Assembly: GCF_001514065.1 (NCBI RefSeq) | Contig: NZ_KQ948433.1 | Location: 315,815-379,814 of the forward strand | Length of the DNA stretch: 64,000 nucleotides | From: Streptomyces antibioticus | Lineage (GTDB): Bacteria > Actinomycetota > Actinomycetes > Streptomycetales > Streptomycetaceae | Direction: 5' to 3' | Shown here: one piece after another, positions 32,100 to 63,895 of the stretch | How positions within the stretch are numbered: position 1 is the first letter of the stretch | Layout: each line of letters opens with the position of its first letter | Program-made: the position numbers and the translations under genes | Notes under the pieces: generated by a model | Database searches by the model: none | What the model was told of the DNA's origin: nothing | What the model saw: the letters and a program-made list of their open reading frames with translations, nothing else

Positions 32100-33265
32100 G
32101 CTGCCCCTCCGAGGGCGAATGTGGCGGGCGAGGTGGCGGCGGAGTGGGTGTGCACCGCGCTGCGCAGCGCGGCGACGACCCGCTCGACCTGGTGGGGCTT
32201 GAGTTCCGCGTGCATGGGGATGGAGAGCTGGCGGGCGAACAGGTCCGCCGAGACGGGGCAGGTCTGCTGTGCCTTGAACACCGGCTGCACATGGCCGGCC
32301 CAGGTGCCCTGCTGGCAGCCGATGCCCTGGCCGCGCAGCTCCGCGGCGACCGCGGCACGGTCCACGCCCGCGTCCAGCGTCACCATGTACGTCTGCCAGG
32401 CGTGGGTGCGGTCGTCGGGGACGGTCGGGGTGCCCACCAGCTCCTCGTCGGCGAGGAGTTCGGCGTACTGGGCGGCGACCGTGCTGCGGCGGGCCAGCAG
32501 TTCGTCGATCCGGCCGAGCTGCACCTGGAGGATGGCCGCGGCGATGTCGGACAGCTTGAAGTTGTAGCCGACCTCGGTGAACGTCGGCACGGGCAGGCCC
32601 ACGACCTTGCCCATGTCGAAGATGCTGCCGATGCCGAACGAGGAGCGCAGCCGCGCGTCCTTGCCGATCTCCGGGTCGTGGGCGAGCAGCGCGCCGCCCT
32701 CCCCGCTGGAGGCGCCCTTGCGTCCGTGGAAGGACAGGCACCCGATCTCGGCGAGCGCACCGGCCTGCCGGCCCCGGTAGGTGGCGCCGACCGCACAGGC
32801 CGCGTCCTCGATGAGGAACAGCCCGTGCCGGTCGGCGATCTCCTGCAGCTCGTCGTAGTCGGCGGGCATGCCGACCGTGTCGATCGCGACGATCCCCGCG
32901 GTGCGCGGCGTGACCAGGTCGGCCACCGCCTGCGGGTCGACCGTGTAGGTGTCGGGCCGTACGTCGGCGAAGACCGGGGTCGCGCCCACGTACAGGGCGG
33001 CCTGCGCGGGCGCCGGGAACCCGTAGTCGGCGACGATGACCTCGTCGCCCGGACCCACGCCGAGCGCGAGCATCGCCAGGTGCAGCGCGGCACCGCAGTT
33101 GGCGAGGGCCACGGCGTCACCGACGCCGTACTTCTTGACGAGCTGGGCCTCCAGGGCCTTGCCCTTGGGGCCTTGTCCCGCGGGCCAGCCGGAGGCGAAC
33201 ACCTCGGCCACGGCGGCCAGTTCCTCCTCGCCGAGGCTCGCGTGGACGAGCGATATCGGTTCCAT
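32096..33265 (-). CDS. PLP aminotransferase, DegT/DnrJ family
   Basis: A 389-residue fold-type I aminotransferase. It has ANCGAALHLAMLALGVGPGDEV, IEDAACAVGA, and the PLP lysine in CLSFHGRKGASSGEGGAL. Such enzymes usually make amino sugars, but no sugar nucleotide genes are present. In THN-derived meroterpenoid pathways a PLP enzyme installs the 8-amino group on flaviolin, and this position next to the cupin oxygenase and THN synthase fits that role. I chose ATG 33265, 7 bp after the cupin stop; a GTG at 33283 is possible. Confidence 0.9.
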   Translation of the reverse strand: MEPISLVHASLGEEELAAVAEVFASGWPAGQGPKGKALEAQLVKKYGVGDAVALANCGAALHLAMLALGVGPGDEVIVADYGFPAPAQAALYVGATPVFADVRPDTYTVDPQAVADLVTPRTAGIVAIDTVGMPADYDELQEIADRHGLFLIEDAACAVGATYRGRQAGALAEIGCLSFHGRKGASSGEGGALLAHDPEIGKDARLRSSFGIGSIFDMGKVVGLPVPTFTEVGYNFKLSDIAAAILQVQLGRIDELLARRSTVAAQYAELLADEELVGTPTVPDDRTHAWQTYMVTLDAGVDRAAVAAELRGQGIGCQQGTWAGHVQPVFKAQQTCPVSADLFARQLSIPMHAELKPHQVERVVAALRSAVHTHSAATSPATFALGGAA

Positions 33266-33870: not shown

Positions 33871-34938
33871 TCAGGACGCGGACCGGGAGTCGTCGGACCC
33901 CCAGGTGCCCAGGGCCATCTCCGCGGTGATACCGGGACCGAAGCCGGCGATCAGGCCGGTGGCGCCGGGGGCCGGGGCGTCCTCCTCGAACAGGCGCCGG
34001 GCGGCCTCCAGGACGACGGCGCTGGCGATGTTCCCGTACTCGCTCAGCGTCGACCAGCTGTGCCGGAACACGTCCCGGTCGACCTCCAGGAACTTGGCGA
34101 GGTCGTCGAGGATGCGCGGGCCACCGGCGTGCACGATGTAGAAGTCGAGCTTGCCCGCGTCCCAGCTGTGGTCCTTGGCGAGCTCGCGCAGGACCGGGGC
34201 GAGCGGCTCCATCGTGCCGGGGACCCGGCGGTCGAGCTGGAAGTGGAAGCCGGTGTCCTTGACCGCGTACGAGATCCAGTCCTCGGTGTTGGGTATCAGG
34301 TAGGAGGCGTTGCGCTCCAGCTCGATGCCGTTGCCGCCGATGCCGCGGACGACGGCCGCGGCGACCGCGTCACCGAACAGGCCGTCGGACAGCAGCGAAC
34401 CGATGTCGTCGGCCTCCGGCTGGTAGCACAGCGAGCACAGCTCGCAGGAGACGATGAGGACGTTGCTGCCGGGGTGGGCCACGCAGAAGTCGTGGGCCCG
34501 GTTGATCGCCGCGCCGCCCGCCGCGCAGCCCAGCTGGGCGATGGGGATCTGCCGGGTGTCGGGGCGGAAGCCCAGCTTGTTGATGAGCCAGGCGGTCAGC
34601 GACGGCATCATGAAGCCGGTGCACGACACGTAGATGATCGCGTCGATGTCACGGGCCCGCAGCTCGGCGTTGGCCAGGGCACGTTCGATGACCTCGGGGG
34701 TGCGCTTCTTCGACTCGACCTCGTAGATGCGGTTGCGCTCCTCGAAGCCCGGGTGGCGCAGCGTCTGCTCGATGGGCTGGACGATGTGCCGCTTCTGCAC
34801 GCCGGTGTTGCGGATCAGGCGGAGCGCCAGGGGCAGTTGCGGCTTGCCGGCGTGCGCCTTCTCCGCAAATTCCAGAGTCTCTTCCACCGTGATGATGTGT
34901 TCCGGCGCCATCATGGCCGGCTTGCAAAGCCTGGGCAT
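33871..34938 (-). CDS. rppA: 1,3,6,8-Tetrahydroxynaphthalene synthase (type III PKS)
   Basis: Condenses five malonyl-CoA to tetrahydroxynaphthalene. The 355-residue chalcone-synthase-fold protein has the triad Cys138 (AQLGCAAGG), His270 (YIVHAGGP) and Asn303 (EYGNIAS). Cys106 (YVSCTGF) is the extra cysteine typical of bacterial THN synthases. I chose ATG 34938 (MPRLCKPAMMAPEH), the normal RppA start; the longer frame has no ribosome site. First gene of the seven-gene leftward operon. Confidence 0.96.
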   Translation of the reverse strand: MPRLCKPAMMAPEHIITVEETLEFAEKAHAGKPQLPLALRLIRNTGVQKRHIVQPIEQTLRHPGFEERNRIYEVESKKRTPEVIERALANAELRARDIDAIIYVSCTGFMMPSLTAWLINKLGFRPDTRQIPIAQLGCAAGGAAINRAHDFCVAHPGSNVLIVSCELCSLCYQPEADDIGSLLSDGLFGDAVAAAVVRGIGGNGIELERNASYLIPNTEDWISYAVKDTGFHFQLDRRVPGTMEPLAPVLRELAKDHSWDAGKLDFYIVHAGGPRILDDLAKFLEVDRDVFRHSWSTLSEYGNIASAVVLEAARRLFEEDAPAPGATGLIAGFGPGITAEMALGTWGSDDSRSAS

Positions 34939-36651: not shown

Positions 36652-37569
36652 TCAGTCCTCCAGCGCGTCGAACGCCTTCAGCAACCGCCGCTGGATGTCG
36701 GTGATGTGGTAGTACGCACCGAGCTTGTAGTACTCCTCCGTGGGCGACAGCGTCAGCCCGTAGACCAGGGTGCGGTTCTCGCCGACATAGGCGTACGGCG
36801 CCTTCGTGCCGTAGTGGCGGAACTGCTCGATGTCGCGCTCGTCCGTGGAGGGCACCAGCGTCGGGTCCGTGGAGATCACCGCGAAGCACAGGCGGTCGAT
36901 CTTGCCGGTGTCCCAGTTGAGGGTGGGGTAGACCGAGAACGAGCGCTTGCAGAACTCCAGCCCCAGCTCGGTCGGCACGTGCAGACCCAGCTCACGGACC
37001 AGCGCCAGCACGGACTCCGGCGCCAGCGTCTGCTCGCTCAACTCGCTGAAGTACAGGTTGACCTGACGCTTCTTGTAGTCCATCGACGTCATCTGGACCT
37101 TGTCCAGCCCGTAGCGGGCGAACAGCTCCGCGTTCTCGGCCACGGACGACGGCATGGACGGGATGGCGCTCAGCTGCGCGACCCCGGGCATGTCGTCGGT
37201 GGGGAAGAACGCGTACGTCTTCTTGAACCCACCGGTGACCTCGCCGTCGATGGCGAACATCGACACCGGAAGGTGCTTCTGGGTGTCGGCCAGCAGATCG
37301 TCCACGGGGTGACCGGTCGCCGGGAACAGCCCCTTGTCCACCACGGTGGCGTACGGGTCGCCCTGGCTGGTCGGCACCGAGATGCTGAAGTCCAGCTCCG
37401 TGGAACGACGTCCGCTCGCCATCGAGAAGACGACGACGCCGTCGGTGAGGGTGTCCTGGAACTCGGTCAGCAGCGGATAGATCTTCTCGCGTGCGCAGGT
37501 CACGCCCAGCAGTCCCGCCGCTTCCTCCATGGCCGCGTACACGCGCTCGACATCAGCGGCTCCGGACAT
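36652..37569 (-). CDS. nphB: NphB-type aromatic prenyltransferase (ABBA fold)
   Basis: Transfers a geranyl group to a dihydroxynaphthalene or flaviolin-type ring. The 305-residue soluble enzyme follows CL190 NphB nearly residue for residue in the parts I remember. It has Asp60 in STELDFSISVP (Mg2+ site), GFKKTYAFFP, SMDYKKRQVNLYF, the Arg in KIDRLCFAV and EEYYKLGAYYHIT, which form the diphosphate pocket. It is two residues shorter at the loop before FSMASGR. GGAGG precedes ATG 37569. It is transcribed away from the SARP gene. Confidence 0.96.
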   Translation of the reverse strand: MSGAADVERVYAAMEEAAGLLGVTCAREKIYPLLTEFQDTLTDGVVVFSMASGRRSTELDFSISVPTSQGDPYATVVDKGLFPATGHPVDDLLADTQKHLPVSMFAIDGEVTGGFKKTYAFFPTDDMPGVAQLSAIPSMPSSVAENAELFARYGLDKVQMTSMDYKKRQVNLYFSELSEQTLAPESVLALVRELGLHVPTELGLEFCKRSFSVYPTLNWDTGKIDRLCFAVISTDPTLVPSTDERDIEQFRHYGTKAPYAYVGENRTLVYGLTLSPTEEYYKLGAYYHITDIQRRLLKAFDALED

Positions 37570-43259: not shown

Positions 43260-44738
43260 TCAGCCGCGCCGCACGGAGGGCTTGCGCACCCGGAAGTTCG
43301 CCATCATGCCCATCGACGCGTGGTCGAACATGTGGCAGTGGTACACGTAGGTGCCCTCGTAGCCGGTGAAGGTCGCCTGCAACTTGACCGTCTCCCCGGG
43401 CTGCAGCGGCACGGTGTCCTTCAGCCCGCTCTCCGGACCGGAGGTGACGGGCTTGCCGTTGCGCTCCAGCACCCGGAACTGCACCAGGTGCATATGGAAG
43501 TTGTGCGGGGTGTAGAGATTGGCGTTGCGCACGTTCCAGATCTCCGTGGCCCCGTACTCGATCTCGGTGTCGACCCGGTCCATGTCGAACGACTTGCCGT
43601 TGATGAACGCGTCCATGGTCGCGCCCGTCTCGTCCATGCTCAGCACGAAGTCACGGCTGACCGTGGCGCTTCCCAGCGCGGGCAGCTTGCGCAGCGTCGA
43701 GGGGACGGTGCTGCGGTCCGTGACGGGTCCGGTGACCCGGAACTGCAGCACCCGGCCGAGCTGGTCGACGGGCTCGCCGGGCAGCAGACCGCCGGTGTTG
43801 GTGAGGATCAGCTTGGTGCCGGCGGCGTACTTGGAGAAGTCGATGACGATGTCGGCGCGCTCACCGGGGGAGAGGGACACCGACGTCACATCCAGCGGCT
43901 TCTCCAGCAGCCCGCCGTCGGAGCCGATCTGCTGGAAGGAGGAGCCGTCGGACAGCTGCAGTGTGTAGAACCGCAGGTTGGCCGTGTTGAACAGCCGGAA
44001 GCGGTACTTGCGGGCGGCGACCTCGAAGTACGGCCACGCCTTGCCGTTGGCCAGCAGCACATGGCGGTTCATGAAGTCGCCCATGCTGTAGATGAGCTGG
44101 CCGCTGTCGTCGAACCGTGCGTCGCGCAGCGCGATCGGCACGTCGTACGCCCCCGACGGCAGGTTGAGGTTCTTCTCCACGTCGTCGGTGAGCAGATAGA
44201 AGCCGGTCAGCCCGCGGTAGACGGTCTCCGACTCCTGGTGGTGGGCGTGGTCGTGGAACCACAGGTTCGCGTGCGGCTGGTTGTTGGGGTACGTGTAGAT
44301 CTTCGACCCGCCGCCCGGCGCGATGAGATCCATCGGCGAGCCGTCACTGCTCTCCGGCACATGCGCGCCGTGCAGATGGATCGAGGTGGACACGCCCAGC
44401 CGGTTGGTCTGCCGGACCAGGACGCGCCGCCCGGAGGCCGCCTTGATGACGGGACCGGGGAAGTTGCCGTTGAAGGTGTACACGCGGGTCTTGCGGCCCG
44501 GCAGGATCTCGGCGTCCGCCTCCTGCATGGCGATGTCGTAGTAGCTGGTCAGGCCCAGATCGCACACCGGCTCCAGCACCTTGGGCACCGGCATCGCCTG
44601 CTCGAACTGCGGAATGGTGGTCGGGTCCAGCTCACCGGCCTGAGCCGACTTGGCCATCGCGGGCGCCAGCAGGCCCGCACTGCCGAGGGCGCCGGTCAGC
44701 GCGGCCCCCGTCAGGAGGACGGTTCTGCGGTGGATCAT
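43260..44738 (-). CDS. Secreted multicopper oxidase (bilirubin/phenoxazinone oxidase type)
   Basis: A 492-residue three-domain copper oxidase. The N-terminus MIHRRTVLLTGAALTGAL is a twin-arginine export signal with cleavage after APAMA. Copper sites are complete: HLHGAH and WFHDHAHH early, HNFHMHL and YHCHMFDHASMGMM at the C-terminus, with a Met axial ligand. Such enzymes oxidise phenols and aminophenols, for example phenoxazinone synthase and CotA. It could oxidise or cyclise the prenylated hydroquinone outside the membrane. GGGAGGGG precedes ATG 44738. Confidence 0.93.
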   Translation of the reverse strand: MIHRRTVLLTGAALTGALGSAGLLAPAMAKSAQAGELDPTTIPQFEQAMPVPKVLEPVCDLGLTSYYDIAMQEADAEILPGRKTRVYTFNGNFPGPVIKAASGRRVLVRQTNRLGVSTSIHLHGAHVPESSDGSPMDLIAPGGGSKIYTYPNNQPHANLWFHDHAHHQESETVYRGLTGFYLLTDDVEKNLNLPSGAYDVPIALRDARFDDSGQLIYSMGDFMNRHVLLANGKAWPYFEVAARKYRFRLFNTANLRFYTLQLSDGSSFQQIGSDGGLLEKPLDVTSVSLSPGERADIVIDFSKYAAGTKLILTNTGGLLPGEPVDQLGRVLQFRVTGPVTDRSTVPSTLRKLPALGSATVSRDFVLSMDETGATMDAFINGKSFDMDRVDTEIEYGATEIWNVRNANLYTPHNFHMHLVQFRVLERNGKPVTSGPESGLKDTVPLQPGETVKLQATFTGYEGTYVYHCHMFDHASMGMMANFRVRKPSVRRG

Positions 44739-45607: not shown

Positions 45608-45637
45608 GTCAGTCCGTGTCAGTCCGTGTCAGTCCTT
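45608..45637. repeat. Three tandem 10-bp repeats at the eboF end
   Basis: GTCAGTCCGT occurs twice (45608, 45618), then GTCAGTCCTT (45628), overlapping the eboF stop codon. Role unknown. Confidence 0.75.
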
Positions 45638-47077
45638 TGACAGGACGTCAGACCTGCCGTCCTCCACCACACGCAGGCCGCGTCCTTCTCCCAGCCCCGC
45701 GAGATCCAGCAGCAGTTCCTTGACCTCGGTCGCCCCGTACCGCCCGCGCGCACCCCGCGGATCCGAGCACAGCAGCACCGGCCCGTCCTGCGGACTGCCC
45801 GGCAGCCGGCCGTGCGTGCCCTTCACCGCCGCCGCGCCCGCGTCCAGCCCGATCGCGCTCATCAGATAGCGCATGCCGAGCTTCTTGCGGGCCAGCGCCA
45901 CCGCGGTGCGTCCCTTCGCGGCGAGCGGCGCCGCCGGGTCGAAGAACAGCTCCGCGGGGTCGTACCCGGGCTTGCGGTGGATCTCCACCAGCCGCGCGAA
46001 GTCCGGTGCGCGCTCGTCGTCCAGCCAGTAGTAGTACGTGAACCAGGCGTCCGGCTCGGCGACCAGCACCAGATCACCGGCCCGCTCATGGTCCAGGCCG
46101 TAGGCCGCCTTCTCCGCGTCGCCCAGCACCTCGGCCACGCCCGGCAGGCCGGCGCACACCTTGCGCACCAGCGGCAGATCCTCGGGATCGTCGACGTACA
46201 CGTGCGCGACCTGGTGGTCGGCGACGGCGAACGCGCGTGACGTCCACGGGTCCAGGTACTCCATGCCGGCCTGGGTGTGCACCCGCAGCAGGTTCTCGCG
46301 GCGCAGCGCACGGTTGACGTCGACCGGGCGGGAGGCCCGTGTGATGCCGTACTCCGACAGGGCCACCACGGTCGCCCCGCGCCGGCGCGCCGCCTCCAGG
46401 AGCGGGCCGAGCACCGCGTCCAGCTTCGCCGCGGCGGCTGCCGCCTTGCGCCCGTCCGGGCCGAAGCGCTGAAGGTCGTAGTCGAGGTGCGGGACGTAGA
46501 CCAGCGTCAGATCCGGGTCGTGGCGCTCCATGATCTGTTGCGCGGCCCGGCAGATCCATGCGGAGGAGGCGATGCCCGCTCCGGGGCCCCAGTAGGAGAA
46601 CAGGGGGAACTCGCCCAGTGCGGTGGTGAGTTCGTCGTGCAGCTCGGGCGGGTCGGTGTAGCAGTCGGGGTCCTTGCGGCCGTCGGCGTGGTAGACGGGC
46701 CGCGGGGTCACCGTCCAGTCGGTGTCCGCGCCCATCGCGTACCACCAGCAGATGTTGGCGACCGTGTACCCGGGGTGGCGGCGGCGCGCCGCGTCCCACA
46801 GCTTGTCGCCGCCGACGAGCTTGTTGTGCTGGCGCCACAGCAGGACTTCGCCGAGGTCACGGAAGTACCAGCCGTTGCCGACGATGCCGTGCTCGCTGGG
46901 CGGGGCGCCGGTGAGCAGCGTGGCCTGCACCGAGCAGGTGACGGCGGGCAGCACCGGGGCGAGTTCGGCCTGCCAGCCCGTACGGGCGATCGCGGCCAGT
47001 CGCGGCATGTGCCTGAGCAGTCGCGGGGTGAGCCCGACGACGTCGAGCACGACCAGGGGAGTGGGCCGGGCGTTCAA
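45629..47077 (-). CDS. eboF: EboF-like alkaline phosphatase / nucleotide pyrophosphatase
   Basis: A 482-residue phosphodiesterase-superfamily protein. It has VVLDVVGLTPRLLRHMP, the nucleophile region LPAVTCSVQATLLTG, EHGIVGNGWY, YVPHLDYDLQRFGPDG and ALSEYGITR, giving the metal ligands of the alkaline phosphatase fold. The TTG start at 47077 overlaps the previous stop and has AGGGAG upstream. In ebo operons this is EboF. No signal peptide, so it works in the cytoplasm. Substrate unknown. Confidence 0.85.
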   Translation of the reverse strand: MNARPTPLVVLDVVGLTPRLLRHMPRLAAIARTGWQAELAPVLPAVTCSVQATLLTGAPPSEHGIVGNGWYFRDLGEVLLWRQHNKLVGGDKLWDAARRRHPGYTVANICWWYAMGADTDWTVTPRPVYHADGRKDPDCYTDPPELHDELTTALGEFPLFSYWGPGAGIASSAWICRAAQQIMERHDPDLTLVYVPHLDYDLQRFGPDGRKAAAAAAKLDAVLGPLLEAARRRGATVVALSEYGITRASRPVDVNRALRRENLLRVHTQAGMEYLDPWTSRAFAVADHQVAHVYVDDPEDLPLVRKVCAGLPGVAEVLGDAEKAAYGLDHERAGDLVLVAEPDAWFTYYYWLDDERAPDFARLVEIHRKPGYDPAELFFDPAAPLAAKGRTAVALARKKLGMRYLMSAIGLDAGAAAVKGTHGRLPGSPQDGPVLLCSDPRGARGRYGATEVKELLLDLAGLGEGRGLRVVEDGRSDVLSKD

Positions 47078-48243
47078 TGGATCAGCTCCCTAACAGGTTG
47101 CCCGCGCAGTCCGAGAGCGAGCAGTTCGTCCCGGGCGAAGGCCACCTCGGCGGCGATACCGTCGGCCAACTGGCCTTCGGTGACAGGGCGTTGGTCGGTC
47201 GGCAGCACGTTCCAGGTGTACGTCTCCACCTCCAGGTGGTCGCACAGCGCCCGTTCGCCGCCGACGAGCACGCTCAGCGCGTCCCGCAGTACGTCGAGCG
47301 TGGCGTGCAGCGGCGGCTGCGGGGCGGCGTGCAGCGGCACGTGGTAGTGCACCCGCCATGGTCCGGGCAGCTCCGCGTCGAGCGCTTCGCCCAGGTCGTC
47401 GGCCGCGTGCCCGGCGGCGGACCTGGTCTGGTGCAGGAACCGGGGTTCGGCGTACCCGCGCAGCGCGTCGGCCGTCGCGGCCTGCTCCGGATGGTCCGCG
47501 CCGAGCGCGGCGGACACCTGCACCTTCACCACCGGCAGCCCCGCACCGGCCAGCCGGGCCAGCGCGTCCCGCGGTTCCTCCCAGCCGCACGCCAGATGAG
47601 CCAGGTCCAGACACACCCCGAGGTAACGGGTGTCGACGCCGGCCAGTGCGGCGGCGACCTGCTCGGTCGACTCCAGCACGCAGCCGGGCTCCGGTTCGAA
47701 CCCGACGCGGATCAGCCGCCCGGTGCGCGCGTGCACGCCCTCAAGGCGTTCCGCGAGCTCGTCGAGCCGCCCCCGCGCCACCGCCTGGTCGGCCACCGTC
47801 CACGGCGTACGCCAGGCCAGCGGCAGCGTCGACACCGACCCGCGGGCGGCGTCGTCGGGCAACAGCCCCGCCAGCACCCGGGCCAGGTCGAGGGTGTACG
47901 TCATCCGCGCGTCGCTCAGCCAGTCCGGCCGGTACACCGCGTGCTTGACCACCGGCGCGTGGAAGGCGCCGTAGGGAAAGCCGTTGCAGGTGACCACCTC
48001 CAGGCCGCGCGCGTCGAGGTCACGGCGCAGCCCCTCCACCGCGGCCGGGTCGGCGGCCAGCCGGGCGGCGACCGGCGCGGCCAGCCACAGCCCGACCCCG
48101 AGCCGCTCGACGCCCAGACCGCGCCGGGCCGGCACCGCGTACGTGTCCAACTGCCGCACGATCTCCGGCAGTTCCTCGCCGGCGTGGACATTGGTGCAGT
48201 ACCCGAGATGGACGGTCTGCCCGTCGCGGTGGGCCAGCCGCAT
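47074..48243 (-). CDS. eboE: EboE-like TIM-barrel protein (xylose isomerase-like)
   Basis: A 389-residue sugar-phosphate isomerase-like barrel. HLGYCTNVHAGEEL at the N-terminus is characteristic of EboE. VTCNGFPYGAFHAPVVK, RVGFEPEPGCVLEST and CLDLAHLACGWEEP carry the metal-binding Glu, Asp and His. The end has VHYHVPLHA and LEVETYTWNVLP. The ATG at 48243 shares its first base region with the eboB stop. Its substrate is unknown; in cyanobacteria the ebo set is needed to move a scytonemin precursor to the periplasm. Confidence 0.9.
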   Translation of the reverse strand: MRLAHRDGQTVHLGYCTNVHAGEELPEIVRQLDTYAVPARRGLGVERLGVGLWLAAPVAARLAADPAAVEGLRRDLDARGLEVVTCNGFPYGAFHAPVVKHAVYRPDWLSDARMTYTLDLARVLAGLLPDDAARGSVSTLPLAWRTPWTVADQAVARGRLDELAERLEGVHARTGRLIRVGFEPEPGCVLESTEQVAAALAGVDTRYLGVCLDLAHLACGWEEPRDALARLAGAGLPVVKVQVSAALGADHPEQAATADALRGYAEPRFLHQTRSAAGHAADDLGEALDAELPGPWRVHYHVPLHAAPQPPLHATLDVLRDALSVLVGGERALCDHLEVETYTWNVLPTDQRPVTEGQLADGIAAEVAFARDELLALGLRGQPVRELIH

Positions 48244-49097
48244 CAGCTGCCTCCGCGGGCGATGGAGTTCCCGGCGAACGCGGAGGCCGCCTCACCCGCC
48301 GTCCCGGACAGGTCCAGCCGTCCGGACTGCCCGTAGAACTCGATCGGGTTGCGCCACAGCACCCGGTCCACGTCGTCCTCGCTGAACCCGGCGTCGAGCA
48401 TCGCCTGCCCGGTGGCGCGGGTGAGCAGCGGGTCACTGCGCCCCCAGTCGGCGGCGGAGTTCACCAGGATCCGGTCCGGCCCCCACTCCCGCAGCACCAC
48501 CGCCATGCGCTCCGGCGACATCTTGGTGTCCGGGTAGATGGAGAACCCCATCCAGCAGCCGCTGTCCGCGATCTGACCGACGGTCACCTCGTTGAGGTGG
48601 TCGACGACGACCCGGCCCGGGTCGATCCCCGACTCCCGCACGACGTCCAGGGTGCGGCGGGTGCCGCGCTGCTTGTCGCGGTGCGGGGTGTGCACCAGTA
48701 CCGGCAGGTCGTGCACGACGGCCAGGGCGAGCTGGGCCGCGAACACCTCGTCCTCGGCCGGGGTCATCGAGTCGTAGCCGATCTCGCCCACCGCGACCAC
48801 GCCGTCCCTGGCGAGGTAGCGCGGCAGCGCGCCGAGCACCTCGCGGCAGCGCGGGTCGTTGGCCTCCTTGGGGTTCAGCGCGAGGGCGCAGTAGTGGCGG
48901 ATGCCGAACTGGCTCGCGCGGAACGGCTCCCAGCCGGTCAGCGAGTCGAAGTAGTCGGTGAAGGACCCGGCGCTCGTGCGCGGCTGGCCGAGCCAGAAGG
49001 CCGGCTCGACGAGCGCGCGCACACCGGCGGCCGCCATCCGCTCGTAGTCGTCGGTGGTCCGTGAGGTCATGTGGATGTGCGGGTCGAAGATGCGCAT
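48243..49097 (-). CDS. eboB: EboB-like TatD-family metal hydrolase
   Basis: A 284-residue amidohydrolase-fold protein. It starts FDPHIHMTSRT (metal-binding HxH), then VVAVGEIGYDSMT (Glu), VLVHTPHRDKQ, VVDHLNE and NSAADWGRSDP. This is the TatD-like member of ebo operons. I chose ATG 49097, which joins the eboA stop as TGATG. Confidence 0.88.
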   Translation of the reverse strand: MRIFDPHIHMTSRTTDDYERMAAAGVRALVEPAFWLGQPRTSAGSFTDYFDSLTGWEPFRASQFGIRHYCALALNPKEANDPRCREVLGALPRYLARDGVVAVGEIGYDSMTPAEDEVFAAQLALAVVHDLPVLVHTPHRDKQRGTRRTLDVVRESGIDPGRVVVDHLNEVTVGQIADSGCWMGFSIYPDTKMSPERMAVVLREWGPDRILVNSAADWGRSDPLLTRATGQAMLDAGFSEDDVDRVLWRNPIEFYGQSGRLDLSGTAGEAASAFAGNSIARGGS

Positions 49098-49876
49098 CAG
49101 ACTGTCTTCTCCTTGAACTCTGCGGACCGTGCCGACGCCGTGTCGCCGATCCCCCTTTGCGGTGTGGACCGCACCCACTCCGGGTCGCTGATCAGCGCCA
49201 GCAGGACGGTCGCGTCGTCGGGCAGGGACCGTCCGGCGGCCCGCCGTTCGTCGTCCAGGTCGGCCAGCATCCGGGCCAGTTCACCGTCGGCCCGCCGGTC
49301 CAGGTCGGCCACGGCGGTCAGCGGTATCTCCATGAACACGCACTTGAGGACGGCCTGCCGCCACATCCCGTCGTCGAGCCGACGGGCGGCGGACCCGACC
49401 GCGGCGGCCACCAGACGCGGGTCGTTGGTACGGATCGCGTCGTCCAGCAGCTCCACCGAGGCGGCCCCGATGTCGAGCCCCTGCGGCACGTCCGGCGCGC
49501 CGGCCGGGCCCTGCGGCCCGCCCGCCGCACCGGCCCCGGCGTTCGGGCCCGACAGGGCGCGCAGCACCGCGCGCTTCTCCGCCGCACCGCCCTGCCAGTA
49601 CAGGGCGGTGACCAGCCGGGCCAGTGCCGTCCCGCGCAGCGGCAGCGCGGTCAGCAGCAGCACCCGCGCCGCGTCGTCGACGCTCCAGCCCGCGAGTTCC
49701 GGGCCGGCCCCGGCGAGTGGGCCCCGGCCGCAGCGCCGGCCCACGGCGGGGAACCGCATGGTGATCGCGTCCGGGTTCTGCGCCACCTGCCAGCGGGCGT
49801 CACCCAGCCACTGCGGGTCGGTGACCTGGTTCTTCAACACGTCGGTCAGTAGGTCTGCGAGATGTCGGGCGGTCAC
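49097..49876 (-). CDS. eboA: EboA-like protein
   Basis: A 259-residue helical protein from GTG 49876 with AGGAGG upstream and a GTGA overlap with the previous gene. WSVDDAARVLLLTALP, LVTALYWQGGAAEKRAVLRAL and LKCVFMEIPLTAV, with ARMLADLDDERRAAGR near the end, fit EboA domain proteins. The longer open frame upstream is an antisense-like read-through and is not used. It contains no catalytic motif; probably a scaffold or partner of the EboB-EboC system. Confidence 0.85.
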   Translation of the reverse strand: MTARHLADLLTDVLKNQVTDPQWLGDARWQVAQNPDAITMRFPAVGRRCGRGPLAGAGPELAGWSVDDAARVLLLTALPLRGTALARLVTALYWQGGAAEKRAVLRALSGPNAGAGAAGGPQGPAGAPDVPQGLDIGAASVELLDDAIRTNDPRLVAAAVGSAARRLDDGMWRQAVLKCVFMEIPLTAVADLDRRADGELARMLADLDDERRAAGRSLPDDATVLLALISDPEWVRSTPQRGIGDTASARSAEFKEKTV

Positions 49877-50769
49877 AGGGAGACCTCCTCCGCTACACGG
49901 GTCGCGCTCAGGAACTCGGCCGCGGCACGGGCGTGGGTCAGGAACGCCAGCGACGTGCGCGCGACCGCGGGGGCGGCATGGGAGTGGCGGGGCAGCTCCA
50001 CGGCCGTCAGCCCCCGGTATCCGGTCTCCGCCAGGGCCCGCAGCGCGGCCGGGAAGTCGACCTCGCCGGAGCCGAACTCCAGATGCTCGTGCACGCCCCG
50101 CCGCATGTCGTCGATCTGCACGTTCACCAGGTACGGGCCGGCCTTGGTGACACACTCCGCCACCGGCAGCGGCTCGACGCAGCGGCAGTGCCCGATGTCG
50201 AGCGTCAGCCCGAAGCAGTCCGGCGCGCCGAGCCTGCCGCGCAGCGCGAACCAGTCGTCGAGGGTCTCCACCAGCATCCCGGGCTCCGGTTCGAACCCCA
50301 GCCGTACGCCCGCCGCGTCGGCCGCGTCCACCACCTCGGCGCAGCCCCGCACCAGCCGGTCCCAGGCCATCCCCCGCGACACCGCGGAGGGCCGGATGCC
50401 GGCCCAGAACGAGACGGCCTCCGCCCCCAGGTCCGCCCCGATGTCCACGGCCCGCCGCAGGAAGTCGAGCCGGGCCGCGGGTTCGTCGTCGAGGAGGGTC
50501 GGGGCGTGCTTGCGCCACGGGTCGAGGAGAAAGCGGGCGCCGGTCTCGATGACGACGGCGAGCCCGAGCCGGTCCAGGCGGGCCGCCAACGCCTCGACGC
50601 GGCGGGGCAGTTCCGGTGCGAACGGGTTCAGATGGTCGTGGTCGAGGGTGAGCGCGACGCCCTCGTAGCCGAGGTCGGCGATGACGGCGAGCGCGTCCTC
50701 CAGGCGGTGGTTGGCGAACCCGTTGGTGCCGTAGCCGAAGCGTATGTCCGAGGAGGTCATGGGGCTCAT
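49873..50769 (-). CDS. Sugar phosphate isomerase/epimerase-like TIM barrel
   Basis: A 298-residue barrel of the xylose isomerase-like family: FGYGTNGFANHRLEDAL, VALTLDHDHLNP, VRLGFEPEPGMLVET, GLTLDIGHCRCVEP, VNVQIDDMRRG and LTAVELPRH. The Glu-Asp-His-Glu metal set is present. It is a second such barrel in the operon besides EboE, and its FEPEPG motif is shared with EboE. It is coupled to ubiA by ATGA. Substrate unknown. Confidence 0.85.
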   Translation of the reverse strand: MSPMTSSDIRFGYGTNGFANHRLEDALAVIADLGYEGVALTLDHDHLNPFAPELPRRVEALAARLDRLGLAVVIETGARFLLDPWRKHAPTLLDDEPAARLDFLRRAVDIGADLGAEAVSFWAGIRPSAVSRGMAWDRLVRGCAEVVDAADAAGVRLGFEPEPGMLVETLDDWFALRGRLGAPDCFGLTLDIGHCRCVEPLPVAECVTKAGPYLVNVQIDDMRRGVHEHLEFGSGEVDFPAALRALAETGYRGLTAVELPRHSHAAPAVARTSLAFLTHARAAAEFLSATRVAEEVSL

Positions 50770-51620
50770 GTCGGCGACACCCGGCCCGCCAGGACTCGGC
50801 CGATCGGTGCGCAGGCGGCCACCGCCGCCGCCGCGCCGGGCCGCGCCGACCGTGCCACGAGCGCACCCTGCAAGGTCGGCAGATTGGTGATCCCGGCCGC
50901 GACCGCGGCCCGTACGCTGCCCGCGTCCGGTGTGGCCAGAGCCCGCACCTGGGCGTCCCCGTAACCGGCCGCGTACCAGGCGGCCAGCGAGCCGACCAGC
51001 CCCGGTCGGGGCGCGCGTCCCGAGGCGGCGAGCGCGACCCCGGCGGTCGCGGCCAGCGTCGCCCCCGGCAGCAGCCGGCCGGTGCCGGACACCTCACGGC
51101 GCGAGAGCGCGGTGACGGTGTAGGTGTGCGCGGCGACGGTGAGCGCCGGCACGAGCGCGCCGCGCCAGCCGCCCCGGCGGGTGCTCGCACCGAGGAGCAC
51201 GTCCAGCGCACGGCAGGCGGCCATGCCGGCCGGCCCCGCGGCGGTGCCCTTCAGCTGCACGTCGTACGCCCACACCGCACCGGTCAGCGGCACCGCCACC
51301 GCGAGCGCCCTGCGGCCCCCGGCCAGTGCGGCGAGCGTCAGTCCGGCCGCGCTGAGCCCGGCCGCGACTCCCAGCGCGGCCCGGGCGCTGATCCGGCCGG
51401 ACGGGATCGGCCGGTCGGGACGCTCCTTCGCGTCCAGGTCCCGGTCCGCCCAGTCGTTGGCGGCCATCCCCGCCCAGTACAGGCAGACCGCGGCGGCGGA
51501 GAGCCCTGCGGTGCGCGGGCCGAGGGTGCCCGCGGCGGCGGCACCGGCCACGGCGTCTCCCGGCACCGACAGCGCGGCGGGCGCGCGGACCAGGTCGACG
51601 AGATCCCGGGGTGTGGTCAT
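50766..51620 (-). CDS. eboC: EboC-like UbiA-family membrane prenyltransferase
   Basis: A 284-residue intramembrane protein with about eight helices. The first Asp-rich motif is NDWADRDLDAKERPDRPI, followed by a second-motif region near VWAYDVQLKG. UbiA enzymes move a prenyl group to an aromatic ring or a glycerol/sugar phosphate. In the ebo operon it may prenylate the product of the inositol-phosphate-synthase-like enzyme encoded next to it. A third prenyltransferase besides the two soluble ABBA enzymes. Confidence 0.88.
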   Translation of the reverse strand: MTTPRDLVDLVRAPAALSVPGDAVAGAAAAGTLGPRTAGLSAAAVCLYWAGMAANDWADRDLDAKERPDRPIPSGRISARAALGVAAGLSAAGLTLAALAGGRRALAVAVPLTGAVWAYDVQLKGTAAGPAGMAACRALDVLLGASTRRGGWRGALVPALTVAAHTYTVTALSRREVSGTGRLLPGATLAATAGVALAASGRAPRPGLVGSLAAWYAAGYGDAQVRALATPDAGSVRAAVAAGITNLPTLQGALVARSARPGAAAAVAACAPIGRVLAGRVSPT

Positions 51621-52771
51621 CGGCCGCCGCCCGGTGCGGTGCTGAGGCCGGCGAGGTAGGTGCGCAGCGCCTCCCACTGGGCGTGCAGTGCGTGGTCGAC
51701 GTCGCCCAGCGGGTCCTTGAAGAAGTAGGAGAGCGACTCCAGCGGCCCGGTGTGTCCGGCCTCGTGCGCGGCGGCGGTGATCCGGGCCAGGTCCAGGACG
51801 AGCGGCGCCGCGAGCGCCGAGTCGCAGCCCTGCCAGGTGAACTGCAGGCACATGCCGGTGCCGAGGAACCCGTCGAAGGTGATCAGGTCCCAGGCCGTCT
51901 TGAAGTCGCCGATGTCGGCGACGTAGTCGATGCGGGTGTCGCCGTCGGGCGCATAGCCGAGGGTCTCGTGCAGCACCCGCTGCTTGCTGGCCGTCTTCGC
52001 GGCGTTGGCCTGCGGGTCGGTGAGGCTGGCGCCGTCGCCGCCGCCGAGCAGGTTGATGCCGGACCAGGAGCGCACCGAGAGGTTGCGCATCGCGAACATG
52101 GGCGCCAGCACCGACTTCAGCAGTGTCTCGCCGGTCTTGCCGTCGTGGCCTGCGTAGGGCAGGCCGCGCTCGGCGGCGAGCTCGGCGAGCGCCGGCAGCC
52201 GGGCTCCGGTGGAGGGGGTGAAGTCGACGAACGCGCAGCCCGCTTCGAAGGCCGCGTAGGCGTACAGCGAGCTGGGCGGCAGCACCCTGCCCGGCGCGGC
52301 GAGCGCGGCGGTCAGCGCGGCCAGGTCGGAGTGCGCGGGATGCGCGGGCGGGGCGGGTTCGGTGGAGGACACGTTGACCACCACCACCCGGTCCAGGCCG
52401 TGCCGTCCGGCGAACGCCCTGAGGTCGTCGGCGATCAGTGCCGCGTCCTCGGCCTGGGTGGCGGCGGCCGGGGCGGGCCGCAGGTTCGCCTCCACCGCGT
52501 CGAGGTCCTGCTCCAGCGCCTGCACCAGCCGGGCCGGCACGACGCCGGCGGCGGCCAGCTGCTCGGCCTTCTTGGCCACGGGGACCGTGGTCACGTCGTG
52601 ACCGCCGAAGACCAGGTCGCCGAAGCCGGGCAGCGCCGTCACGTCCAGCGCGGGATGAGCGGTCACGCAGCCCACCGGGTCGGCCAGCCCGGCACGCAGC
52701 GCGAGCGCCCCGATCACGCTGGTGGTGGCGACGGATCCGCGGGCACCGATGAACCAGATGCCAGCACGCAC
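51617..52771 (-). CDS. myo-Inositol-1-phosphate synthase-like protein
   Basis: A 384-residue NAD enzyme from GTG 52771, with AAGGAG 6 bases upstream. It has the Rossmann start FIGARGSVATTSVIGA, VVVVNVSSTEP, GHDGKTGETLLKSVLAPMF and SWSGINLLGGGDG, with KTASKQRVL for the catalytic Lys region. It cyclises a sugar phosphate in its family. It heads the leftward ebo operon, the place where other ebo sets carry EboD, a dehydroquinate-synthase-like protein that also handles a sugar phosphate. Confidence 0.88.
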   Translation of the reverse strand: MRAGIWFIGARGSVATTSVIGALALRAGLADPVGCVTAHPALDVTALPGFGDLVFGGHDVTTVPVAKKAEQLAAAGVVPARLVQALEQDLDAVEANLRPAPAAATQAEDAALIADDLRAFAGRHGLDRVVVVNVSSTEPAPPAHPAHSDLAALTAALAAPGRVLPPSSLYAYAAFEAGCAFVDFTPSTGARLPALAELAAERGLPYAGHDGKTGETLLKSVLAPMFAMRNLSVRSWSGINLLGGGDGASLTDPQANAAKTASKQRVLHETLGYAPDGDTRIDYVADIGDFKTAWDLITFDGFLGTGMCLQFTWQGCDSALAAPLVLDLARITAAAHEAGHTGPLESLSYFFKDPLGDVDHALHAQWEALRTYLAGLSTAPGGGR

Positions 52772-52836
52772 GATTGTCTCCTTCGGGATCACACGTTCGG
52801 CAACGAACGCAATGGATCTTGTGGTCTGTGTGCGCT

Positions 52837-52877
52837 GCGGGCCGGACCGGACCTCTGAGCGGTCCGGTCCGGCCCGC
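52837..52877 (-). terminator. Hairpin downstream of the ScyD/E-family gene
   Basis: 17-bp perfect arms at 52837-52853 and 52861-52877 with the loop TCTGAGC, lying between the secreted protein gene and the ebo operon. It should isolate the two leftward units. Confidence 0.85.
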
Positions 52878-52896
52878 GCGCGGGACGACCGGTCGG

Positions 52897-54096
52897 TCAG
52901 CCGATCTTGACGATCTGTCCGTCGCCGGTGGCGTGGATGTCCGTGGAGCTGGTGCAGGCCGGGGCGTCGGTGCAGGCCGGCCACATCATGGTCTTGTCCG
53001 CGACGTAGATGGAGCCGTCGGGGCCGGCCAGGAAGCCGGTGGGCGCGAACAGCTTCTTGTCCGCCAGGACGGTACGGGAGTTGTCCTTGTGGTTGATCTG
53101 GATGACGTTGCCGATCGGGTCACCGGTGGGCAGGAAGCCGGTGGTGTCGAACTGCGTCACGTAGAAGTCGCCGTTGGCACCGAAGCCGCAGCCGCTGATG
53201 GCGCTGAAGCCGCTCTGCCAGACCTTGAGCTTGCCGGTCTTGGGCGAGTACCGGTACACGTTGGCGGCGGTCTCCGAGTTGCCGTGGCCGGTGATCTGGC
53301 CGATGTACACGCCGCCGTCGGGGCCGACGTCGAGGCACATCGGGACGGCGTCCGAGCCGCCCGGCGTCTTGGGCACGAAGGCGAGGACCTTGGTCTTGCC
53401 CTTGCGGTCGACCGAGTTCAGCGTGTTGGCGCCCGCGTCCACCAGGTAGAACCCGCCACCCGGCTTCGTCGTCAGCGCGTACGGGTTGGACGCCGGGTAG
53501 GTGTCGGACAGGTCCGGGTTGTTCTTGGTCCAGTTCCAGTTGACCGTGCCCGGGTTGGCGATCACCTTGCGCTGCCCGTGGGTGATGTCCATGATCGAGC
53601 CGTACTGCTTGGTGAGCGTCTTGGTCAGCTCCGGGTCGAGCCCGGCCGGCACCTGCTCCGGCGAGCCGGCCTGCAGGGTGTAGATGTGGCCCTTGCGGTC
53701 GACGGTGATGCCGTTGGGGCCGATCGTCTCTTCCTGGTTGAACGCGGTCGGCAGGTTCCTGGCGATCCGCACCGGGGTGCCGGAGGAGACATCCGCGACC
53801 GAACCGGTCTGGCCGTAACACCTGGTGGGGAAGCCGGTGCCCTGGCAGGCGGTGGGGGTGGCCCCCATCTCGGTGACCAGGAGTTCACCGTCGGGGCCCC
53901 AGGCCAGGCTCCGCGGTGAGTCCAGCCCGCGGGCCACCACGGTGACCGGTGCGTCGCTGGTGAGGTGGCGGTTCGGGCGGGCCTTCTGGTTGGCGGCCTC
54001 GGCCGCCTGTCCCGACGGTCCGACTCCCAGGCCGACGAGCGCTGCGGCGGCCGCAACTCCGGCGACCAGCGTTCTGCTCGTTTTGAGACGCCGCAT
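52897..54096 (-). CDS. Secreted ScyD/ScyE-family beta-propeller protein
   Basis: A 399-residue exported protein. MRRLKTSRTLVAGVAAAAAL is a secretory signal with cleavage near SGQAAEA. The mature part has NHL/SMP-30-like blades: ARGLDSPRSLAWGPDGELLV, IGPNGITVDRKGHIY, CLDVGPDGGVYIGQ, GFGANGDFYVTQF and LAGPDGSIYVAD. This matches ScyD/ScyE, secreted proteins of cyanobacterial scytonemin synthesis, and the gene lies directly upstream of an ebo operon, as scytonemin clusters also combine the two. I chose ATG 54096, the only start with a GGAGGG site. Likely acts outside the membrane. Confidence 0.88.
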   Translation of the reverse strand: MRRLKTSRTLVAGVAAAAALVGLGVGPSGQAAEAANQKARPNRHLTSDAPVTVVARGLDSPRSLAWGPDGELLVTEMGATPTACQGTGFPTRCYGQTGSVADVSSGTPVRIARNLPTAFNQEETIGPNGITVDRKGHIYTLQAGSPEQVPAGLDPELTKTLTKQYGSIMDITHGQRKVIANPGTVNWNWTKNNPDLSDTYPASNPYALTTKPGGGFYLVDAGANTLNSVDRKGKTKVLAFVPKTPGGSDAVPMCLDVGPDGGVYIGQITGHGNSETAANVYRYSPKTGKLKVWQSGFSAISGCGFGANGDFYVTQFDTTGFLPTGDPIGNVIQINHKDNSRTVLADKKLFAPTGFLAGPDGSIYVADKTMMWPACTDAPACTSSTDIHATGDGQIVKIG

Positions 54097-58821: not shown

Positions 58822-58855
58822 CCCGGACCCCTTCCCCTTCCCGTACGGCGGCGGC

Positions 58856-59887: not shown

Positions 59888-59904
59888 CTGGCTCAACTCT
59901 CCCT

Positions 59905-62992: not shown

Positions 62993-63895
62993 ATGTCCGG
63001 AGAAGCCGGCATAGAACGTCTGTACGTGGCCGTGGAAGAGGCGGCGGGCCTGCTGGGCGTGGCGTGCTCACGCGACGCCATGTGGCCGGTCCTGACCGCG
63101 TTCCAGGACGTATTCGCCGACGGCAGCGTCGTCTTCAACATCGTGACCAGCGGTGGACACGTCGCCGACCTGTCCTTCGACTTCTCGGTGCCCCCCGCCG
63201 TCGGCGACCCCTACACACATGCCCTCGCCCACGGCCTGGTCGACGAGACGGACCATCCCATCCGCGCCCTCTTCGCGGACATCCAGGAACGGTTCCCGAT
63301 CCAGTCGTACGGCGTCGACCACCGCATATCCGGCGGCTTCAACAAGGCCTACGTCTTCTTCCCGCTGACCGACCTCCAGGACCCGGCCCGGCTCGCCGCC
63401 GCCGTCCCGTCCCTTCCGAGCGGCCTGGCCGAGCATGTGCGCACCCTCGCCGACCACGGTCTGGCCAACAAGGTGTCCGCCATCGCGATCGACTACGCGC
63501 GCCGCACCTGGAACCTCTACTTCAACGGCCTTTCCCCCGAGCACGTCAGCCGTGAGGCGGCCCTGTCCCTGATCCGCGAGTTCGGCCTCCCGGAACCGAG
63601 CGAGCAGCTCCTGTCCTTCATCGAGACCTCGTCGGCGCTGTACCCGACCTTCGGCTGGGACTCCACCAAGGTCGAGCGGCTCAGCTTCTCCACCCGCACC
63701 ACGGACCCGGCGGCCCTGCCCGCCCGCATCGAGCCGAAGCTCGGCGAGTTCGCCGCCAACGCCCCGTACACCTACGACGGCGACCGCGTCCTCGTCTACG
63801 CCGGCGCCCTGTCGGCCAGCGAGGAGTACTACAAGCTGGCGGCCTACCACCAGCTGACCGCCGCGGCCCACGACCGCATCCGATCCGCCGGCTGA
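62993..63895 (+). CDS. ABBA prenyltransferase, phenazine-prenylating type
   Basis: A 300-residue soluble prenyltransferase. It shares the ABBA fold blocks with NphB (AVEEAAGLLGVACSRD, FDFSVPPAVGDPY, GFNKAYVFFP, AIDYARRTWNLYF, VERLSFSTRT, EEYYKLAAYH) but is distant overall. It resembles the dihydrophenazine-carboxylate enzymes PpzP/EpzP/CnqP3 more, for example LPEPSEQLLSF compared with LPEPSDELLRF. With a complete phz operon in the window it probably prenylates the phenazine core. Chain length (C5 or C10) is not visible. Confidence 0.88.
   Translation: MSGEAGIERLYVAVEEAAGLLGVACSRDAMWPVLTAFQDVFADGSVVFNIVTSGGHVADLSFDFSVPPAVGDPYTHALAHGLVDETDHPIRALFADIQERFPIQSYGVDHRISGGFNKAYVFFPLTDLQDPARLAAAVPSLPSGLAEHVRTLADHGLANKVSAIAIDYARRTWNLYFNGLSPEHVSREAALSLIREFGLPEPSEQLLSFIETSSALYPTFGWDSTKVERLSFSTRTTDPAALPARIEPKLGEFAANAPYTYDGDRVLVYAGALSASEEYYKLAAYHQLTAAAHDRIRSAG

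Follow-up and report, generated by a model that had tools for sequence, protein, structure and literature searches.

The 64,000-nucleotide (nt) stretch of the Streptomyces antibioticus genome analysed here (contig NZ_KQ948433.1, positions 315,815 to 379,814; hereafter the window) raises the question of why a naphthoquinone gene cluster should carry an ebo operon together with a gene for a protein of the ScyD/ScyE family (hereafter ScyE). Eight leftward genes, identified with family models and Pfam domains and running from position 54096 to 45629, encode in this order a ScyE-family protein, a protein similar to myo-inositol-phosphate synthase (MIPS), a UbiA-superfamily prenyltransferase, a TIM barrel protein, EboA, EboB, EboE, and EboF. 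The original prediction, made from the DNA letters and a list of open reading frames (ORFs), proposed an ebo-type set of seven coupled leftward genes with a ScyD/E-type gene upstream, and all eight genes were found where it had placed them; its gene list stands with two additions, i.e., EboD is absent and a MIPS-like gene takes its position, and the set has one TIM barrel more than the cyanobacterial one. A link between this eight-gene module and naphthoquinone genes is supported by gene content and phylogeny across related genomes, as detailed below.

Gene content of the module

52897..54096, minus strand: ScyD/ScyE-family protein, predicted NHL-like propeller with a putative Sec-type signal peptide recognised by eye (NF033206)
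51617..52771, minus strand: MIPS-like protein in the place of EboD (PF07994 + PF01658)
50766..51620, minus strand: EboC-like UbiA-superfamily prenyltransferase (NF045897; ND-x2-D-x3-D motif)
49873..50769, minus strand: xylose-isomerase-like TIM barrel, the extra gene (PF01261, 135 bits)
49097..49876, minus strand: EboA, predicted all-helical (NF035938)
48243..49097, minus strand: EboB-like TatD/phosphotriesterase (PTE)-type metallo-hydrolase (PF01026, 58 bits)
47074..48243, minus strand: EboE, TIM barrel (NF035939)
45629..47077, minus strand: EboF-like type I phosphodiesterase/phosphatase (PF01663, 223 bits)

The seven ebo genes (45629-52771, minus strand) form a coupled operon in the order MIPS-eboC-TIM-eboA-eboB-eboE-eboF, in which overlaps are 4 or 1 nt throughout, and the upstream ScyE gene ends 125 nt before the MIPS gene; these distances indicate an operon and not a chance array. 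The ScyE protein scored 256 bits against NF033206 (cut-off 80), EboE scored 410 bits against NF035939 (cut-off 250), and EboA scored 136 bits against NF035938 (cut-off 50) while falling below the narrower EboA model NF035937 (58 vs. 320). The UbiA protein scored 349 bits against NF045897, named “SCO3242 family prenyltransferase” (cut-off 260), and 113 bits against EboC’s own model NF035940, below the cut-off of 250. EboB (TatD-like) and EboF (PF01663) belong to the Pfam families assigned to these Ebo proteins in the available text of PMC5133447.

No match to PF01761 was found among the operon proteins in the search for the sugar-phosphate cyclase EboD, and a MIPS-like protein is encoded instead. 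The name EboD was dropped for this gene because its product lacks PF01761, carries PF07994 and PF01658, and has a MIPS-type closest structure. The protein has the two Pfam domains of MIPS and, in an alignment with Archaeoglobus fulgidus MIPS, the lysine-bearing segments typical of the family (DGKTG, K-x-RVL, GDxKT, and FKDP), which are conserved across 11 sequences. The A. fulgidus enzyme is also the nearest solved structure (1u1i, 231 bits); Mycobacterium tuberculosis INO1 (1gr0, 37 bits) is far more distant.

A separate clade of ebo loci

EboE was detected in 265 of 392 genomes of the genus; ebo is common in Streptomyces and its presence by itself therefore says little. Besides the window copy, the host genome carries two ebo operons on contig 7 (C7:8573 and C7:166326), 158 kb apart, with no MIPS match beside either in the stretches fetched; a second MIPS of the host (58% identical) lies on contig 1. 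For comparison we used 80 loci from named (GTDB) genomes; these are the top 80 when 428 EboE relatives are ranked by their similarity to the window EboE, and hence not a random sample. A tree of EboB, EboE, and EboF from 88 loci (FastTree) placed the window copy, L004-L009, and the locus of genome G254 in one clade of eight (support 1.0); the host's two remaining copies each pair with an ebo of the ordinary Streptomyces kind. The ScyE-ebo octet, with ScyE first, could be read directly in seven of the eight clade loci (window, L004, L005, L006, L007, L009, and L162); in the eighth, L008, the contig begins within eboC, whose start is found, along with ScyE and MIPS, where a different contig of that genome ends (L118). 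No ScyE match above 80 bits was found in the flanks of the other 74 named loci. The window copy thus appears, from these comparisons, to be a special, cluster-owned version of ebo with a ScyE partner.

Co-occurrence with naphthoquinone genes

The window encodes the three gene types expected for a meroterpenoid derived from tetrahydroxynaphthalene (THN), i.e., a type III polyketide synthase, an aminotransferase, and ABBA prenyltransferases:

33871..34938, minus strand: type III polyketide synthase, THN synthase-like (PF00195/PF02797)
32096..33265, minus strand: pyridoxal-phosphate-dependent aminotransferase, marker of an 8-aminoflaviolin-type cluster (PseC/ArnB-type matches below cut-off)
36652..37569, minus strand: ABBA aromatic prenyltransferase 1 (PF11468)
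63026..63895, plus strand: ABBA aromatic prenyltransferase 2 (PF11468)

“8-Aminoflaviolin-type” is the name that we take to apply to this aminotransferase. Judged by its genes, the cluster looks like a meroterpenoid-phenazine supercluster of the S. cinnamonensis/Streptomyces sp. S4.7 kind.

Among 12 genomes examined, all seven with window-type ebo encoded a ScyE above the cut-off and an ABBA prenyltransferase, while neither was found in the five comparison genomes with other ebo (G007-G011, chosen from the 80 loci and not random; two are of other genera, one of those a metagenome bin). The aminotransferase was present in all six window-type genomes besides the host and in none of the five comparison genomes, and was also found in the host and in G254; all eight genomes of the window ebo clade carry both the aminotransferase and an ABBA prenyltransferase, in differing layouts, as expected if ebo and ScyE go with a quinone cluster. 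By genome gene content, we found no case of window-clade ebo at the same place in a cluster-less strain; ordinary ebo is common in the genus. In the genomes compared, the co-occurrence suggested in the original prediction was thus seen for window-type ebo with aminotransferase and ABBA genes.

In the genus sample, the aminotransferase was detected in 26, ABBA prenyltransferases in 33, and ScyE (E 1e-20) in 21 of the 392 genomes, counts that may be low, like those of EboE and window-type MIPS in the same sample, because four to six first-look candidates were scored per genome (five for ScyE, which is possibly undercounted). ScyE occurred in 6/26 aminotransferase-positive and 15/366 aminotransferase-negative genomes (p = 0.0013; 5/25 and 15/366, p = 0.006, without the host), and 15 of the 21 genomes with ScyE have no such cluster. 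Window-type MIPS (at least 81% identity among the matches listed; the next is 64%) and full-length window-type ScyE were found in the same 4/392 genomes, all aminotransferase-positive (Fisher p = 1.5e-5; 2.3e-4 with three genomes, the window’s own being left out), although these genomes represent a small number of lineages, some of them closely related, so that all these p-values overstate independence and serve only as a guide. In sequence terms, the tight link is with window-type ScyE and MIPS and not with the ScyE family at large. Full-length window-type ScyE proteins scored 430-814 in the hidden Markov model search, all others scoring at most 135, and formed one clade of 16 rows (support 100/99), all 16 from genomes with ABBA genes; this tree kept 36 of 38 ORF matches (G116, a fragment, and G259, a weak match, were left out) and contains long branches that meet, which is a warning. 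The G116 fragment (102 bits over 108 residues), from an aminotransferase-positive genome, is perhaps a remnant of a window-type ScyE.

Gene order around the module

The octet is kept whole across four different surroundings. In the window and Act143, it lies between the multicopper oxidase and a hemerythrin-cyd region, while in CoH27 and G254 it adjoins ABBA prenyltransferase 2, with the oxidase, a LysR gene, and cyd genes farther on. Of three Actinacidiphila genomes, the two with joined contigs present the order SARP, flavin monooxygenase (FMO), major facilitator superfamily (MFS) pump, ScyE, ebo, polyprenyl synthase, THN synthase, and aminotransferase, and the third is split over two contigs. 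The NK08204 module is flanked by about 22 kb on its left and 24 kb on its right in which the only matches are distant ones (30-38%) to monooxygenase, sigma factor, MFS, and ATP-binding cassette (ABC) proteins; a second contig carries ABBA prenyltransferase 1 (87%), SARP, FMO, cytochrome b, and mevalonate genes, and the aminotransferase (86%) is on a third contig, outside the stretches fetched. Genes were called with our own GC-frame caller, so that starts may be misplaced; eboC of L004 and L009 was missed by it and shown by tblastn.

The high frequency of EboE in the genus, as well as the separation of module and cluster genes in NK08204, would suit a common Streptomyces ebo that happens to border the cluster; however, the window copy belongs to a clade separate from the host’s other two ebo operons, is linked to ScyE, and is of a type that has so far turned up in no genome lacking the aminotransferase or ABBA genes. 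A chance neighbourhood is thus scarcely credible, and we rejected it on the separate clade and the constant company of the module.

Four further window-type ScyE genes without ebo were found in Actinacidiphila, three of them at a distance of roughly 8-11 kb from an ABBA gene; no quinone-type enzyme was among the ten proteins that we scanned around two of the four, which makes their link to quinones weak. Separately, two genomes (L159, 893-10552, and L160) have an ordinary ebo operon and also a ScyE-family gene of another kind, which in L159 lies about 1.5 kb downstream; no ABBA genes were found genome-wide.

Multicopper oxidase, phenazine genes, and merochlorin-like loci

43260..44738, minus strand: multicopper oxidase with a twin-arginine (RR; Tat-type) signal (PF07732/PF00394/PF07731)

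The RR signal and four copper-ligand-like motifs of this oxidase were recognised by eye, the latter presumably corresponding to those of CueO. An oxidase of this kind was found with four of the eight modules (window, Act143, CoH27, and G254), which supports the oxidase part of the original interpretation only in part.

The original prediction also allowed for a phenazine precursor as the substrate. The phz genes present in the clusters of the window, CoH27, and G254, and a distant ScyE gene (27-28%) upstream of phzD in G232, are what would be expected if the module served the phenazine half. However, the stretches fetched (incomplete) for Act143, NK08204, and the three Actinacidiphila genomes, i.e., five of the eight modules, gave no phz match, which argues that the module follows the naphthoquinone genes. 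Phenazines were accordingly rejected as the main target, and service to the phenazine half is very unlikely. The G232 locus (L161:2-8704) also has a piece of a multicopper oxidase gene (55%) at its contig end.

Two closely similar genomes, G195 and G058, each have a MIPS gene (81%) and two ScyE genes, all of the window type, near THN synthase and ABBA genes. In G195, the neighbours of ScyE and MIPS include a cis-prenyl synthase gene and three vanadium-chloroperoxidase genes, two of which encode proteins that begin with RR signals (by eye), the third being cut by the locus end; in G058, two proteins have an N terminus near-identical to those of the G195 chloroperoxidases (the family scan was made in G195). 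From the chloroperoxidases and the cis-prenyl synthase, we take these loci to be merochlorin-like.

The actinobacterial form of ebo

All seven genes in the order given above were found in 64 of the 80 named loci; of the remaining 16, 14 are cut by a contig end shortly before eboE, L066 is without a TIM barrel match, and L080 is without TIM barrel and EboA matches. The window operon is therefore, by gene content, the actinobacterial form of ebo, with the MIPS-like enzyme standing where EboD stands elsewhere. Genes SCO3241-SCO3244 of S. coelicolor, near the calcium-dependent-antibiotic cluster, are presumably of this form. In 44/80 named loci (L011-L082), eboF is followed on the same strand, after 36-206 nt (median 150), by a gene for a relative of polyprenyl-diphosphate synthases, 41-47% identical to the protein encoded at 18588-19670 of the window; this is likely an eighth ebo gene, perhaps undescribed, that would supply the prenyl donor of EboC.

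Outside this form, ebo carries EboD, a sugar-phosphate cyclase, and an isoprenoid-cyclitol has been proposed as the ebo product (PMC5133447, as far as its available text goes). Since the MIPS and EboD families both form cyclitols from sugar phosphates, the exchange favours that proposal, and together with the polyprenyl-synthase gene it would provide independent support for a prenylated cyclitol.

Predicted structures of ScyE and EboA

The ATG of the ScyE gene at 54096 opens an N terminus that resembles a signal peptide when read by eye, and six cysteines are among the invariant columns of an alignment of six sequences. The structure predicted from these six sequences (pLDDT 74) is a propeller, NHL/SMP-30-like, with propeller matches in the PDB from E 4e-12; the closest are NHL proteins, streptogramin lyase, lactonases, an amidating lyase, and a putative glucose dehydrogenase, while the ScyE sequence gave only weak propeller matches in the PDB. 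The modelled fold alone does not make ScyE an oxidase. The AlphaFold model of EboA, built from 45 sequences, is all-helical (pLDDT 89) and had no significant match in the PDB (best E 0.39); a TPR-like scaffold has been proposed for EboA in PMC6282210, within the part of it available.

Proposed function of the module

In Nostoc, every ebo gene that was deleted was needed, ebo mutants making none of the sunscreen scytonemin while the monomer accumulates in the cytoplasm; in a scyE mutant the monomer reaches the periplasm, and the authors suggested a cyclitol lipid carrier (PMC6282210, available sections). The occurrence of ebo and ScyE in one array with another aromatic product supports the same division of labour here. 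Our preferred reading, which we regard as quite possible though short of probable, is that the eight genes form one module, ebo plus ScyE, that would serve a THN-derived, prenylated naphthoquinone and move an intermediate of its pathway for completion outside the cytoplasm. The MIPS-like enzyme would form a cyclitol phosphate by ring closure of a sugar phosphate, as presumed for EboD elsewhere; the TIM barrel protein, EboB, EboE, and EboF would tailor and dephosphorylate it; and EboC would attach a prenyl chain, helical EboA being a candidate assembly factor. The prenylated cyclitol lipid would then take an intermediate, either a naphthol or a quinone, through the membrane to ScyE, which would act on it outside, in some clusters with the Tat-type multicopper oxidase and in the merochlorin-like clusters with the vanadium chloroperoxidases that bear RR signals.

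Several findings weigh against this reading. Our confidence is limited because most related clusters lack the module: ScyE (E 1e-20) was not found in 20, and window-type MIPS not in 22, of the 26 aminotransferase-positive genus genomes, suggesting that such quinones are made without the module and that the module is accessory. The few, partly related lineages noted above are a further caution. The NK08204 module is not adjacent to cluster genes, no multicopper oxidase of the window kind was found with four of the eight modules, and none of eboA, eboB, eboC, eboE, and eboF was seen beside ScyE and MIPS of G195 and G058 in the stretches fetched. The predicted ScyE fold resembles not only a sugar dehydrogenase but also lyases, lactonases, and binding domains. 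Finally, an EboC homologue farnesylated quinoline acids, not a cyclitol, in vitro (PMC9235831, in its available part), and the main text of the paper on the related mfq cluster (PMC12814520) contains none of the terms ebo, inositol, UbiA, multicopper, and secreted.

The accessory distribution would also suit a role in self-protection, in which no intermediate is moved; a prenylated inositol lipid would shield the membrane and ScyE would bind or break the quinone outside, along with a respiratory bypass (second cydABCD and extra cytochrome b) and a quinone reductase. The cluster indeed contains a divergent second cydA, a QcrB-type cytochrome b gene, and wrbA, and cydABCD accompany the module in the window, CoH27, and G254 (Act143 shows cydC and cydD). 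Around the Actinacidiphila modules, however, the cydD-like ABC matches seen are all distant (33-34%) and cytochrome b was not seen, and the failure of Nostoc ebo mutants at scytonemin, with accumulation of the monomer (PMC6282210, in part), speaks against protection; we consider this role unlikely.

The in vitro prenylation of aromatic acids by an EboC homologue (PMC9235831, available part) fits a tailoring role, in which ebo would make a cyclitol or an EboC-prenylated part of the product and EboC would be a third prenyltransferase of the pathway; the prenylated-cyclitol product proposed for ebo in general (PMC5133447, likewise) agrees with it too. Yet the operon is far commoner than such clusters (EboE in 265/392 and the aminotransferase in 26/392 genomes), no match above 80 bits to THN synthase, aminotransferase, or ABBA prenyltransferase was found in the flanks (up to 10 kb) of the 74 other named loci, and the available text of the literature consulted describes no cyclitol-bearing product. 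Tailoring is thus quite improbable.

Extending transport by the module beyond these clusters, ebo in general might make a prenyl-cyclitol carrier lipid for aromatics, with actinobacteria starting from inositol phosphate and private copies, together with ScyE and exported oxidases or haloperoxidases, finishing some naphthoquinones outside; this extension is doubtful. On our analysis, these prenylated naphthoquinone antibiotics may be finished outside the cytoplasm, which, if true, would place late steps of a well-studied antibiotic class there. Since these Streptomyces are genetically workable and their pathways can be cloned in full, a cluster-owned ebo with ScyE opens the carrier-lipid idea to direct experiment.

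Comparison with known systems

With ebo and scyE of Nostoc punctiforme (scytonemin; Klicki 2018, PMC6282210, as available), the window shares EboA, EboB, an EboC-like protein, EboE, EboF, and a ScyE-family protein with a putative signal peptide, which together would serve one metabolite. It differs in the MIPS-like protein in place of EboD, the extra TIM barrel, the gene order, and the position of ScyE directly before ebo; in addition, the host is Gram-positive, and the predicted product is a naphthoquinone and not an indole alkaloid. Five of the six Ebo families of Bacteroidetes, Cyanobacteria, and eustigmatophyte plastids (Yurchenko 2016, PMC5133447, as available) are shared, the sugar-phosphate cyclase being absent from the window; the same text names Actinobacteria for an EboA fused to an isomerase-like protein, whereas in the window the two are separate coupled genes. 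The Ubi-297/ebo locus of Flavobacteria and Saccharomonospora has a UbiA-type prenyltransferase in ebo, as in the window, but no ScyE or meroterpenoid cluster is described for it in the available part of PMC9235831.

The mfq cluster of Streptomyces sp. S4.7 has a THN synthase, a prenyltransferase, phenazine genes, and a SARP gene, as in the window (PMC12814520, available text, which also names the furanonaphthoquinone (FNQ)/endophenazine cluster of S. cinnamonensis). The merochlorin-like loci of G195 and G058 share with the window the window-type ScyE (two genes), window-type MIPS, THN synthase, and ABBA genes, and differ in having vanadium chloroperoxidases in place of the multicopper oxidase, the other ebo genes not being seen beside them. 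The FNQ/endophenazine cluster is presumably similar to that of the window. Inositol is not mentioned in the available text of PMC9686526, PMC4650096, and PMC10897937, and no description of ebo or ScyE in a Streptomyces meroterpenoid cluster was found in the literature searched (mostly open-access main text, available in part). What is new here, as far as sequences tell, is a cluster-owned ebo with ScyE in which MIPS replaces EboD, a variant of the known ebo/ScyE system.

Other features of the cluster

The source genome comprises 10.15 Mb in 29 contigs. The window also encodes a mevalonate pathway and a phenazine core, as well as a cupin, an O-methyltransferase, an acyl-CoA-ligase-like protein, WrbA, SARP, sigma regulators, an FAD monooxygenase, and an MFS pump. 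A further enzyme gene lies near the left end:

11703..13133, plus strand: nitrosuccinate lyase (NF052556, 788 bits vs. 650)

This match points to a nitrous-acid pathway, made up of an FAD protein and the lyase (9529-13133) inside the naphthoquinone cluster; such a pathway is expected for diazotisation-type deamination in a cluster of this kind. In G247 and G259, this pair of genes likewise adjoins a distant ScyE gene. ARAGORN called a tRNA with a four-base anticodon (11627-11728, minus strand) that overlaps the genes for the FAD protein and the lyase and is probably spurious. The cydABCD set at 55274-61206 is a second, divergent one, with possible respiratory self-protection as its role; a normal cydA is found elsewhere in the host (C5:594112, 577 bits against 294+88). 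The extra cytochrome b (15211-16920), of the actinobacterial QcrB type (NF050120, 749 bits), is 60-62% identical to three other host copies and also occurs in the NK08204 cluster.

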